From Spirochaetota bacterium (lineage in GTDB: Bacteria > Spirochaetota > UBA4802 > JAFGJZ01), in contig JAKPJF010000013.1 of the NCBI GenBank assembly GCA_029554345.1, positions 1 to 41,907 of the forward strand: a stretch of 41,907 nucleotides of DNA, read 5' to 3'. Positions within the stretch are counted from its first letter, which is position 1. Each line of letters starts with the position of its first letter. The notes beneath the pieces are model-generated. The model did not search any database. It had not been told where the DNA came from and worked only from the letters and a program-made list of their open reading frames with translations. Below are positions 37,884 to 41,169 of this stretch, piece by piece. Both the position numbers and the translations under genes were made by a program.

Positions 37884-38888
37884 ATGAAAAAATACGAAAT
37901 AGTCGGAATCGAAAACGCGCTTATCGATATTCTGGTAAAATCGAGCGATGAAGAGATTGAAAAACTCGGACTGAAAAAAGGAGTGATGCAGTTAGTTGAA
38001 TCTGATGAACAGAAAAAGCTTCTTGCGTCACTTGAAAATTCAAATGCCGAATATGAGCTTGGCGGAAGTACGGCAAACGCTCTTCGCGGGGCAGCAGTTC
38101 TGGGAGCGAAGACATTATACTCTTCCGCTCTCGGAAACGACAAGTGGAAGGAAGTTTTCAGAAAGCGTCTTGCCGAACTTAATATTGCCGACCGTACGGT
38201 AATCAAGGAAGGGCAGACCGGCAGCTGTGCAGTACTGGTGACTCCTGATGCGGAACGCACGATGAATACTTTTCTCGGAGCATGCAGGCTTTATTCGCGC
38301 GAGAATCTGCCTGTTTCAGATATTGAATCATGTTCTATATTTTTTTCAACCGGTTATGTCTGGGATATGCCCAATCAGATAGACGCTATCGAGGAAGCTG
38401 TACGGCTGGCGAAAGCTTCAGGCGCACTTTTTGCTCTTGATATAGCAGATCCCTTTGTCGTGTCGCGAAACGGCGAACGCTTCAAGGAAATGGCTGCTTC
38501 GGGTTTGATTGATATTCTTTTTGCGAACGCGGATGAAGCGAAAATGCTCACAGGAAAAGAAGGCGAGCATGCCGCGGCTGAACTTCATAAAAATATTCCT
38601 CTCGTTGCTGTCAAAGTCGGATCAAAAGGTTCGTTTGTCGCTTATAAAGGAAAGAATGAACAAGCTGGAATTTTTCCAGCCGAACCAATGGATTCTACCG
38701 GTGCGGGGGATATGTATGCCGGAGGTTTCCTTTTCGGTCTTGCAAAAGGATGTGATCCTTTGACTTGCGCAAAGATCGGATCATTTCTTGCGGCTGATAA
38801 TATATCGCGAATCGGTGTACGCCTTTCTTCTGATATCAGGGAAAAGATTGTAAAAGCCATTCCGGAAATTGCGGGTCTTGTGGGATAA
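37884..38888 (+). CDS. PfkB-family carbohydrate/nucleoside kinase
   Basis: A 334-residue ribokinase-fold enzyme. GGSTANALRGAAVLGAKTLYSSALGNDKW (about 58-86) is signature 1, and DSTGAGDMYAGGFLFGLAKG (about 270-290) is signature 2 with the catalytic Asp. The sequence order and IGIENALIDILVKSSDEE at the start resemble adenosine kinase-like or 'sugar kinase of unknown specificity' members. It phosphorylates a sugar or nucleoside hydroxyl with ATP; the substrate is not predictable. The ATG is immediately after the TGA of the preceding gene. A plain ribosome binding site is missing, consistent with coupling. Confidence 0.92.
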   Translation: MKKYEIVGIENALIDILVKSSDEEIEKLGLKKGVMQLVESDEQKKLLASLENSNAEYELGGSTANALRGAAVLGAKTLYSSALGNDKWKEVFRKRLAELNIADRTVIKEGQTGSCAVLVTPDAERTMNTFLGACRLYSRENLPVSDIESCSIFFSTGYVWDMPNQIDAIEEAVRLAKASGALFALDIADPFVVSRNGERFKEMAASGLIDILFANADEAKMLTGKEGEHAAAELHKNIPLVAVKVGSKGSFVAYKGKNEQAGIFPAEPMDSTGAGDMYAGGFLFGLAKGCDPLTCAKIGSFLAADNISRIGVRLSSDIREKIVKAIPEIAGLVG

Positions 38889-38907
38889 AAAATCAAAAGG
38901 AGTTTTT

Positions 38908-39495
38908 ATGGGCAAACTTATAAAACTGAAAGTCAATGAAGTCTATCAGCTCAAAATAACTCTTCAGGAAACCAAGCCGGAAATATGGAGGCGGTTTCTT
39001 GTTGTTTCGTCAATAAAACTCCCTGACCTGAGCAAGGTGATTCAAACTGTTATGGGATGGACGAATTCCCATCTGCATCAGTTTGTCAAAGACGGAAAAA
39101 TCTATTCTGAACCCGATGAACATTCATATCATGAAAGCGTTGATTATAGAAAAATCAGGCTGAATCAGTTTATGACTGAAGAAAAACAGTCGGTAATTTA
39201 TGATTATGATTTCGGTGACGGCTGGTCTCATAAAATCGTTCTCGAAAAAATCATCAGTGAGAAAATGCAGAAATATCCCGAGTGTATCGGCGGAAAAAGA
39301 GCGTGTCCTCCTGAAGACTGCGGCGGGCCGTTCGGCTACGGAAATCTGATGGAAATTCTTTCTGATCCTGACAACGAAGAATATGATTCAATGATGGACT
39401 GGCTTGAAGGTGATTATGATCCCGAATTCTTTGATATGGAAGAAGTTAACGAAATGCTAAAGGAGAAGGATTTCGGGTGTGTTGATTTTGATTAA
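38908..39495 (+). CDS. pRiA4b ORF-3-like protein
   Basis: A 195-residue protein matching the plasmid pRiA4b ORF-3 family (PF07929-type): VYQLKITLQETKPEIWRRFLVVSSIKLPDLSKVIQTVMGW near 10-50, HLHQFVKDGKIYSEPDE near 54-70, IYDYDFGDGWSHKIVLEKI near 100-118 and ACPPEDCGGPFGYGNLMEIL near 138-157. The family is widespread on plasmids and in genome accessory regions, and its function is unknown. AGGAG precedes the ATG at 38908; an upstream Met at 38869 overlaps the PfkB gene. It is the last gene before the hairpin array. Confidence 0.88.
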   Translation: MGKLIKLKVNEVYQLKITLQETKPEIWRRFLVVSSIKLPDLSKVIQTVMGWTNSHLHQFVKDGKIYSEPDEHSYHESVDYRKIRLNQFMTEEKQSVIYDYDFGDGWSHKIVLEKIISEKMQKYPECIGGKRACPPEDCGGPFGYGNLMEILSDPDNEEYDSMMDWLEGDYDPEFFDMEEVNEMLKEKDFGCVDFD

Positions 39496-39527
39496 ATTGT
39501 TTTGCTCAAGAGTTAAGCAGACTTCAC

Positions 39528-39849
39528 AAGGCTTCGCCTTATGTATTCGTTACTCTCATGGTGTCATGTAATACATAAAAGGTGTTTCATACCTTTTAAA
39601 TCCAGTTTGTCCGGTCACCGGACTTGTTTTTAAAGATGTCGATATCTCCGAGTGTCGGAATACAATCAAAGGCTTCGCCTTTGTAATTCCTTGTTCGCAT
39701 GGTCTCATGCGATAAGATCAAAAGGGACAGGGCTTCAGTCGCCAGCCCTGTCCCTTTTGAAATCCCTACCCGGCTTTTGTCGGGCGAATTCCTCGCACCG
39801 GCTTTGCCGGATGCTGCGGTCGCCCGAGTGGTGTCCGACTGCGTCGGAC
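39528..39849. repeat. Array of about ten consecutive stem-loops with two copies of one composite unit
   Basis: In order: AAGGC-ttc-GCCTT (39528-39540); ATGTATT/AATACAT (39541-39576); TAAAAGGT/ACCTTTTA (39576-39598); GTCCGG-tca-CCGGAC (39609-39623); TCCGA-gtg-TCGGA (39647-39659); CAAAGGC-ttc-GCCTTTG (39667-39683); TCGCATG-gtct-CATGCGA (39695-39712); a 17-bp stem TCAAAAGGGACAGGGCT with its complement (39718-39760); CCCGGC-tttt-GTCGGG (39769-39784); CGGGCGA/TCGCCCG (39781-39826) enclosing CCGGC-ttt-GCCGG; and GTCCGAC-tgc-GTCGGAC (39833-39849). Segments 39528-39576 and 39668-39715 share the order GGCTTCGCC, TTC, CATGG-n-n-TCATG and are diverged repeats. The whole gap from 39496 to 40131 has no supported gene. 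Confidence 0.85.
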
Positions 39850-40031
39850 TTTTAGGGAAGGTTCTACCATATTTCCTTTTCTTAAGTACGCTAACTATTC
39901 TATTGTCCAACAGAAGATTAGGAGAGATTACAAAAGTTGTCTCGCTTCAAATAATTTACAGGTATTACATTATCTTGCATATTTGGTTTGGAAAGCCTTA
40001 TAAGTAAGTTTATATAATCACCTTATTAATC

Positions 40032-40131: not shown

Positions 40132-41169
40132 ATGATAAAGTTTAGAATATCTGCAATTATGATTTTTACAATGTTACTCGTGTTTTCTTTCTATGTAAGC
40201 ATCGCGAAAAGTGATGATTCAAAAAATATGGATTTAAATGAAGTTTTGACTTACACCTTGCCAAATGGTATTTTATTTAAGATGATTGCAACTCCTGATA
40301 TCCCGATAAATAATACTTTTCCGACCGGCACAAATGATTCCGATTCATCGAATGTCCCTGCGCGTTTTATTATGGGAGAAACGGAGGTTACATATGAACT
40401 GTGGTATAAAGTTTATAAATGGGCAACTACCAATGTAGGCGGAGGTAAACGTGAAGATGGCGGTGGTTTGTACAAATTTGCTAACGCTGGAATTGAGGGA
40501 AGTAATGGAAAAGTCGGCGCGAAACCGACAAGTGCTAAACGAGAACCAGTAACGAAAGTCAATTGGCGTGACTCTATTGTTTGGTGTAACGCTCTTACCG
40601 AATATTACAATGCTAATAATGGAACGAAAGCTGTTCTTATATGTGTTTATACTTATAATGGATCAATAATACGCGATTCGACTAATTCTAACGCATTAGC
40701 CTGTGACAACACAATACAAAATTTAACTGCAAAAGGTTTTCGTTTACCGACAAGTAACGAGTGGGAATTTGTAGCACGTTACCGAGGAACTGATACAACA
40801 AATGCTGTTGCTGGCAGTGATGGAACATATTATACTAAGGGAAACAGCGCGAGCGGTGATACTCAGGCATGTAATGCATCAACGCCAACATTGGGTGATT
40901 ATTCTGTATATAGATTAAATTCAGATAAAACATCCATCGTAAAAACAAAAAAACCTAATGCTCTCGGTGTATATGACATGAGTGGAAATGTTTGGGAATG
41001 GTGTTTTGATTGGCATCCTGATTTTGTCGGTAAATACAGGGTGATACGTGGCGGAACCTACTTCTACGCCGAAAACATTATACAGTTGGGAGAGGTGTCC
41101 TGCGGTGATCAATTTTCTGAAGGTGAAGAAATGGATGACTACGGCTTCCGCTTCTGTAGAACTAGGTAG
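40132..41169 (+). CDS. Secreted SUMF1/formylglycine-generating-enzyme-like domain protein
   Basis: A 345-residue protein with a signal peptide (MIKFRISAIMIFTMLLVFSFYVSIA). The SUMF1 fold is seen as FIMGETEVTYELWYKVYKWA near 81-100, EPVTKVNWRDSIVWCNALTEYYN near 140-160, GFRLPTSNEWEFVARYRG near 200-220, GVYDMSGNVWEWCFDW near 280-295 and the RVIRGGTYF...YGFRFCRTR end. It lacks the paired active-site cysteines of true formylglycine-generating enzyme in its C-terminal loop (the region after RGGT has one Cys in VSCGDQ), so it is more likely a binding or structural relative, as in the PvdO/EgtB-like branch. Secreted copies are common in spirochaetes. AAGGAG precedes the ATG. Confidence 0.87.
   Translation: MIKFRISAIMIFTMLLVFSFYVSIAKSDDSKNMDLNEVLTYTLPNGILFKMIATPDIPINNTFPTGTNDSDSSNVPARFIMGETEVTYELWYKVYKWATTNVGGGKREDGGGLYKFANAGIEGSNGKVGAKPTSAKREPVTKVNWRDSIVWCNALTEYYNANNGTKAVLICVYTYNGSIIRDSTNSNALACDNTIQNLTAKGFRLPTSNEWEFVARYRGTDTTNAVAGSDGTYYTKGNSASGDTQACNASTPTLGDYSVYRLNSDKTSIVKTKKPNALGVYDMSGNVWEWCFDWHPDFVGKYRVIRGGTYFYAENIIQLGEVSCGDQFSEGEEMDDYGFRFCRTR

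Follow-up and report, generated by a model that had tools for sequence, protein, structure and literature searches.

An interspersed family of mosaic hairpin arrays in Spirochaetota that tends to lie between conserved and accessory genes

What is the dense cluster of stem-loops at positions 39528-39849 of a 41,907-nucleotide stretch of Spirochaetota DNA, and why should one intergenic region hold so many different hairpins? The stretch (hereafter the window) corresponds to contig C122 in the draft assembly of the own genome (G000), which comprises 3.03 Mb and 214 contigs. A first-pass annotation, made from the letters alone, had counted at least ten hairpins there. That number stands under a looser criterion, whereas a scan requiring a stem of at least 5 bp and a score cut-off yields nine, with the hairpins at 39503-39519 and 39557-39568 falling below the cut-off. 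In 300 dinucleotide shuffles of 39496-39870 the mean count was 1.0 and the maximum 5, and the summed hairpin score of 155 compares with 11.8 in the shuffles (maximum 59). Hairpin density is higher here than anywhere else in the window. The predicted folds far exceed those of shuffled sequences on both strands, whether the region is folded as RNA (z-scores -8.0 and -8.8) or as DNA (-12.0 and -9.5). Three particulars of the annotation were recovered: a perfect 17-bp stem at 39718-39760, a hairpin nested within another (outer arms CGGGCGA at 39781-39787 and TCGCCCG at 39820-39826, inner CCGGC/GCCGG at 39798-39810), and a duplicated unit, of which the copies at 39528-39573 and 39669-39714 are 76% identical. 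The element proved longer than had been noted, starting further left with a hairpin at 39503-39519 and ending beyond 39849 in a tail, TTTTAG; its ends are not joined by any overall inverted repeat. The parts of this copy and its two neighbouring genes are as follows.

38908 to 39495, plus strand: left gene, PRiA4_ORF3 family; the left neighbour in the sister species too
39503 to 39519, plus strand: left-end hairpin TGCTCAAGAGTTAAGCA, just past the stop codon of the left gene (39495); the module also lies at the left end of the array on contig C168 and of its ortholog in the sister species
39528 to 39540, plus strand: type-a hairpin AAGGCTTCGCCTT, common to many arrays; with the next type-b hairpin, up to 39573, the first duplicated unit
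39557 to 39568, plus strand: type-b hairpin CATGGTGTCATG, assigned from sequence and array layout
39576 to 39598, plus strand: type-a hairpin TAAAAGGTGTTTCATACCTTTTA, from the hairpin scan
39609 to 39623, plus strand: type-b hairpin GTCCGGTCACCGGAC, from the scan and the array layout
39647 to 39659, plus strand: type-b hairpin TCCGAGTGTCGGA, from the scan and the array layout
39667 to 39683, plus strand: type-a hairpin CAAAGGCTTCGCCTTTG, second duplicated unit
39695 to 39712, plus strand: type-b hairpin TCGCATGGTCTCATGCGA, from the scan and the array layout
39718 to 39760, minus strand: I module, with an interchangeable 17-bp stem and a conserved minus-strand loop, GGCGACTGA; covariation in 21 copies; the loop recurs in locus L212, from another family of the order
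39781 to 39826, minus strand: J module, the nested hairpin (7-bp outer stem, inner CCGGC/GCCGG), one of at least four interchangeable J types for this slot
39833 to 39849, minus strand: K module, terminal hairpin GTCCGAC-TGC-GTCGGAC; about 12 unrelated stems fill the K slot of other copies
39850 to 39863, plus strand: tail TTTTAG..., after K and towards the accessory gene
40132 to 41169, plus strand: right gene, with an FGE-sulfatase domain; beyond the orthologous array of the sister species lies a RelB/RelE-like pair instead

The region is one of many. A BLAST search of the own genome returned 80 matches at E<=10 on more than 30 contigs, corresponding to about 50 other places, and the subset of parts that is present differs from copy to copy. 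We count about 45 arrays in this genome; the census looks nearly complete, because 177 kb of contigs without a BLAST hit (20 contigs or their first 20 kb) contained none. A covariance model built from the right part of the element (K-J-I, 137 positions, minus strand) hit the own genome 36 times and the sister species (G001) 27 times.

The arrays share a fixed order of modules in one orientation: alternating type-a and type-b hairpins, then I, J and K, and finally a T-rich tail (GTTTTAGGTG after the K hairpin). Type-a hairpins have the form AAAGG..CCTTT, at times ATAAGG..CCTTAT; type-b hairpins include GCATGG..CATGC, GTCCGGTCACCGGAC, CCGAGTGTCGG and others, and the two types are joined by linkers such as AATCCGGTTT. 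Some arrays carry in addition a module of two stems (c+d), situated within a type-a loop, within the I loop, or between J and K, of which the stems vary among copies while the loops persist. The dispersed copies, this modular make-up, and hairpins that sit in or replace loops at orthologous sites bear out the suggestion of the first-pass annotation that small palindromic elements of one family have become nested in each other here.

Pairing is retained in slots where the sequence is exchanged. In the I slot (21 copies), 97.2% of the cells are paired and covariation amounts to 0.497, compared with 0.212 when shuffled and at most 0.13 when the partners are slid. In the K slot, which is occupied by about a dozen different stems, the corresponding values for 50 copies are 99.4% and 0.648, against 0.201 and at most 0.08. 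The K-slot copies were picked by their flanks only, with no requirement for pairing, and this set replaces an alignment that had been picked for perfect palindromes. The shuffle test is inflated by related copies; the slid controls preserve relatedness and stay below the observed covariation. The annotation had reserved a random palindrome cluster or an assembly artefact for the case that the units had no other copy in the genome and showed no covariation or transcript; other copies and covariation have both been found.

The family is confined to one Spirochaetota genus by nucleotide sequence and is wider by structure. Among 58 relatives, only G001, the single genome of the same genus in that set, carries it at the nucleotide level, and a conserved 31-base pattern matched solely G001 in a collection with one genome per species (84,980 species), from which the window's own record is possibly absent. 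The exact motif was not found in viral contigs, the window copy had no blastn match in plasmids or phages, and a copy from genus g11 had none in plasmids; a viral, phage or plasmid origin was rejected on these empty searches. Restriction to a single genus was overturned by the covariance model, which gave weaker but significant hits in five of five genomes of genus g7, in three g11 genomes and, once, in g9, and no hit in the two genomes of the sister genus. Among 198 genomes across the phylum, E<=1e-5 was reached by the own genome, g7 and g11 only, and by no genome outside the order. In g7 and g11 the stems are different, and loops and layout are kept: in L212 (g7) an unrelated stem is combined with the same I loop, TGGCGACTGAA, and a similar linker; L214 and its kin (g11) keep the order b-I-J-K, and their J module closely resembles one of the J types in the own genome. 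The g11 elements are also dispersed: two genomes have 22 and 23 matches, and three more have 4-5 each. Sampled stretches of other relatives in the order were free of such arrays. All genomes are drafts, the sister genome being 66% complete. The wholesale replacement of stems with retention of pairing, loops and order, together with the recurrence of the layout in other genera, is strong evidence that folding is selected or actively maintained.

Some ten arrays are found at matching sites in the two species, and these orthologous arrays gain or lose two-hairpin units of 50-57 bp. One species lacks a 50-bp b+a unit between ATCCNGTTT repeats at the pyruvate kinase site, where the J type has also been swapped; a similar two-hairpin unit distinguishes the species at the homoserine dehydrogenase site and at the site shared by contigs C191 (own genome) and C217 (G001). 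At the latter site the I stem is wholly different, with loop and flanks unchanged. Loops are also a place of insertion: the I loop of the C76 array has 6 nt, and its G001 ortholog holds a 60-nt two-hairpin insert between identical arms, while at the greA site a nested insert splits a hairpin that is present in the other species, in a flank that is 98% identical. Slippage, unequal recombination and exchange between copies would account for these changes; we infer active transposition from none of them. Since most arrays have kept their position between the two species, movement is slow or rare.

The two ends of the arrays tend to face different kinds of genes: a conserved chromosomal gene on the left, a variable accessory gene beyond K and the tail. 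Of 20 left genes in the own genome, 19 belong to a Pfam family that scores over its cut-off; on the right the figure is 11 of 20, with genes called mechanically as open reading frames throughout. The left genes include those for AdhE, GltD, homoserine dehydrogenase, pyruvate kinase, S-adenosylmethionine synthetase (MetK), TrpA, GreA, a DinG-type helicase and an enzyme with a PPDK domain; a Fic protein and a Mutator transposase are exceptions in being accessory. On the right we find TIR, MazE, RibD_C, KilAC, MORN and unknown proteins. At the few sites that the two species share, they usually have the left gene in common and differ in the right one. At the window site, PRiA4_ORF3 and the array are followed by the FGE-sulfatase gene in the own genome and by the RelB/RelE-like pair in G001. 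An array together with a 197-aa gene on C191 is missing at the matching place in G001, although most of a neighbouring gene has been lost there as well, so that plain deletion can explain this case. Conversely, an array with a 93-aa gene on C287 of G001 is missing in G000. At the adhE site, the single array of G000 corresponds to array-relE-array in G001, and in one g11 stretch two arrays face inwards on a block of small genes. These presence/absence changes may be gains or losses. The left gene lies on either strand, and arrays occur at either end of it. A bias for replication strand was rejected, with 24 of 38 arrays agreeing in GC-skew orientation, which is not significant.

Several individual neighbourhoods deserve mention. 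The right gene of one array in the own genome (L144:12289-16650; contig C161, 37.3-41.6 kb) encodes a 1453-aa Cas9 with a Csx12 alpha-helical lobe (PF21069) and HNH_4. Locus L097 (G001 C217:16000-27773) contains several copies of an RHS/YD-repeat-type C-terminal gene, and next to each copy lie a hairpin array and a small gene that differs from copy to copy. A g11 genome (L248:12932-13705; G013 C12) has, past the tail of an array, a gene with a penicillin-binding transpeptidase domain (PF00905), which by eye resembles a class D beta-lactamase. In the window itself, positions 38870-38895 correspond to G001 C10:12140-13411, where a 1.2-kb insertion with a 403-aa gene, and no array, separates PfkB from PRiA4_ORF3; single-gene insertions thus happen without arrays too.

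We hypothesize that the region is one copy of an interspersed family of mosaic elements, selected for the folding of a single strand and located at the borders of accessory-gene insertions; we give this reading even odds (a probability of about 0.5). Selection would keep the folded minus strand, probably as single-stranded DNA. Slippage or unequal recombination at the linker AATCCGGTTT, which is repeated, would add and remove units, and modules would pass between copies by recombination. Recombination of arrays in the same orientation, or a putative recombinase acting on the folded strand, would insert, swap or remove the adjoining accessory gene; recombination between arrays would be the simplest way to exchange it. 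The position between a conserved and a changing accessory gene would then offer a testable route for single-gene exchange in genomes without a recognisable integron.

A different view is that the elements are purely selfish palindromes that insert into each other and into intergenic DNA, moved by an HUH enzyme (Y1 or Y2) that acts in trans or is now lost, and that accessory genes merely coincide with regions tolerant of insertion. The nesting of hairpins is as expected from such elements, Y1 transposases occur in related genera that carry the structural family, and the own genome contains a single IS91-type Y2 element at a distance of 4-5 kb from an array. Random nesting, however, does not lead one to expect a fixed module order and a fixed orientation to the neighbours. 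Furthermore, the genus has no Y1 enzyme: PF01797 (RAYT/Y1) gave no hit in G000 or G001, while positive controls were detected. In three related genomes none of 14 Y1 loci adjoins an array; GTAG stands at the base of only 10 of 510 hairpins (about 2%), and the tag CGTC/TGTC/CCTC is absent at most hairpin bases. A RAYT/REP system is rejected on these three grounds, and the proposal that the region is a site for a RAYT-like protein is not supported. No Y2 was found in the sister species (genome 66% complete), and with one Y2 element in all, IS91 was set aside as the probable mobiliser. We consider the selfish reading unlikely. That the elements are non-autonomous and mobile, as the first-pass annotation had offered, is supported indirectly by presence and absence between species; on the other side, no mobilising enzyme was found, and no excision product was seen, nor, as would mark a MITE, a target-site duplication at the clean empty sites, which are too few and diverged to reveal one.

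Two candidates for a mobilising enzyme emerge from the gene content, namely a tyrosine recombinase adjoining an array in G001 and the Y2 element of the own genome. The former is the right gene of its array and follows it directly (L095:2479-3534; G001 C326), with Phage_int_SAM_4 and Phage_integrase domains. The latter (L150:5701-7677, contig C183) is IS91-like: a tyrosine recombinase gene, broken into two reading frames, precedes a gene for a Y2 transposase that carries Zn_Tnp_IS91. Contig C183 also has two pieces of array and an IS3-type element that appears to sit inside one of them. Elsewhere in the own genome, clusters of adjacent tyrosine recombinase genes that resemble recombinase-in-trio elements are found at C180:3760-5497 and C180:22138-23740.

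The arrays might alternatively be a family of structured non-coding RNAs on the minus strand, with their own transcripts or as part of those of their neighbours, in which stems vary and loops and junctions are conserved. Compensatory change, a conserved loop (GGCGACTGA) that reaches another family of the order, and the strong predicted folds are compatible with this, as is the prevalence of minus-strand G-U pairs among the departures from Watson-Crick pairing in the I and K slots. These wobble pairs, however, make up just a few percent of the cells, and the loops are mostly triloops, neither GNRA nor UUCG tetraloops. About 170 triloops read TNC in array orientation (GNA on the minus strand) and 13 are of the reverse kind (GNA in array orientation), although array orientation was set partly from motifs that contain loops, so that this count is not fully independent; in g11 the numbers are 12 and 2. 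The DNA mini-hairpin d(GCGAAGC), which is extraordinarily stable, has a C-GNA-G loop. Stable DNA mini-hairpins of this type have been treated before (PMC10527192). Because C-GNA-G triloops prevail and wobble pairs are few, we regard single-stranded DNA as the better guess for the selected molecule. The suggestion of a structured RNA is compatible with covariation and the one-strand lean of the wobble pairs, and fits triloops and wobble share less well than single-stranded DNA does. Against an RNA also speak the inconstant relation to the strand of either neighbouring gene and the copy number of about 45 per genome, with large indels. A known RNA family was rejected because no match reached the gathering score of an Rfam family; the weak E-value matches are microRNA-type hairpins. 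Overall, we judge an RNA family doubtful, somewhat more so than selfish palindromes. The minus strand (as the window reads) is favoured, not proven, as the conserved folded strand, since wobble pairs favour the plus strand in two type-a hairpins, of which the window contains one.

An ordinary cluster of intrinsic terminators, chance palindromes or an assembly artefact is hardly credible and is refuted as the main explanation: although K followed by TTTT resembles a weak terminator, the shuffles never reach the observed structure, the family recurs in independently assembled genomes, and arrays lie at either end of neighbouring genes; for this last reason a simple 3'-UTR or terminator role was rejected as well.

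Descriptions of palindromic repeats in bacteria usually involve a RAYT that moves one or a few types of hairpin. In generic terms the family is a bacterial interspersed mosaic element, set apart by how many classes of hairpin it combines, by its fixed grammar and interchangeable stems, and by its link to accessory genes. As in the BIME/REP elements of enterobacteria and pseudomonads, there are many dispersed extragenic copies, composed of mosaic palindromic units with conserved linkers. However, BIMEs repeat one or a few types of palindrome in alternating orientation, whereas the arrays combine many classes in a fixed order and one orientation, with stems that are interchangeable within a slot and hairpins nested in loops, and they have neither the GTAG tag nor a RAYT in the genome. 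CGTC-tagged palindromic repeats have been reported in Spirochaetes too (PMC3733652); these are likewise palindromic and have no known dedicated transposase, and large mosaic intergenic clusters are described in Neisseria. The arrays differ from them in being mostly untagged, in having triloops instead of loops of 4-5 nt, and in their multi-module grammar. The mobile GC clusters of yeast mitochondria (PMC4478555) are also palindromic and GC-rich, have no known transposase and undergo merger and shuffling, but they are mitochondrial, short single clusters with no fixed grammar and no relation to accessory genes. In the accessible part of the open-licence literature, Spirochaetes included, we found no description of the present family.

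In integrons, accessory genes are cassettes that each lie beside a folded, strand-specific attC site, of which the sequence varies while the structure is kept. The arrays resemble attC sites in all these respects, and we speculate that they are recombination platforms for accessory-gene cassettes: an integron-like exchange in several genera of Spirochaetota, with a folded single strand recognised by its structure and sites spread over the whole chromosome. We hold this to be improbable, about as much so as the RNA reading. Unlike attC sites, the arrays are scattered over the chromosome instead of forming one array, and they contain many hairpins each. The best match to the integron integrase profile (TIGR02249; own genome only) scored 90.8 bits against a cut-off of 265; an integron proper was rejected for want of an integrase over cut-off, although tyrosine recombinases occur in the own genome.

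Further conserved sequence is found beyond the arrays. In the tails of L007, L028, L030 and L055, several copies share TTTTGGATTTGACW-N17-CATAAA or similar beyond the K tail; this motif is promoter-like and reads towards the accessory gene. The tails of L027, L056 and L098 (for example at about 1770-1900 of L098) contain a second conserved long hairpin, which is imperfect (CCGGCTTC..CCTTATGCC..CATAAGG..ATCCGTAAGCCGG), lies between convergent accessory genes and arrays, and is vaguely attC-like.
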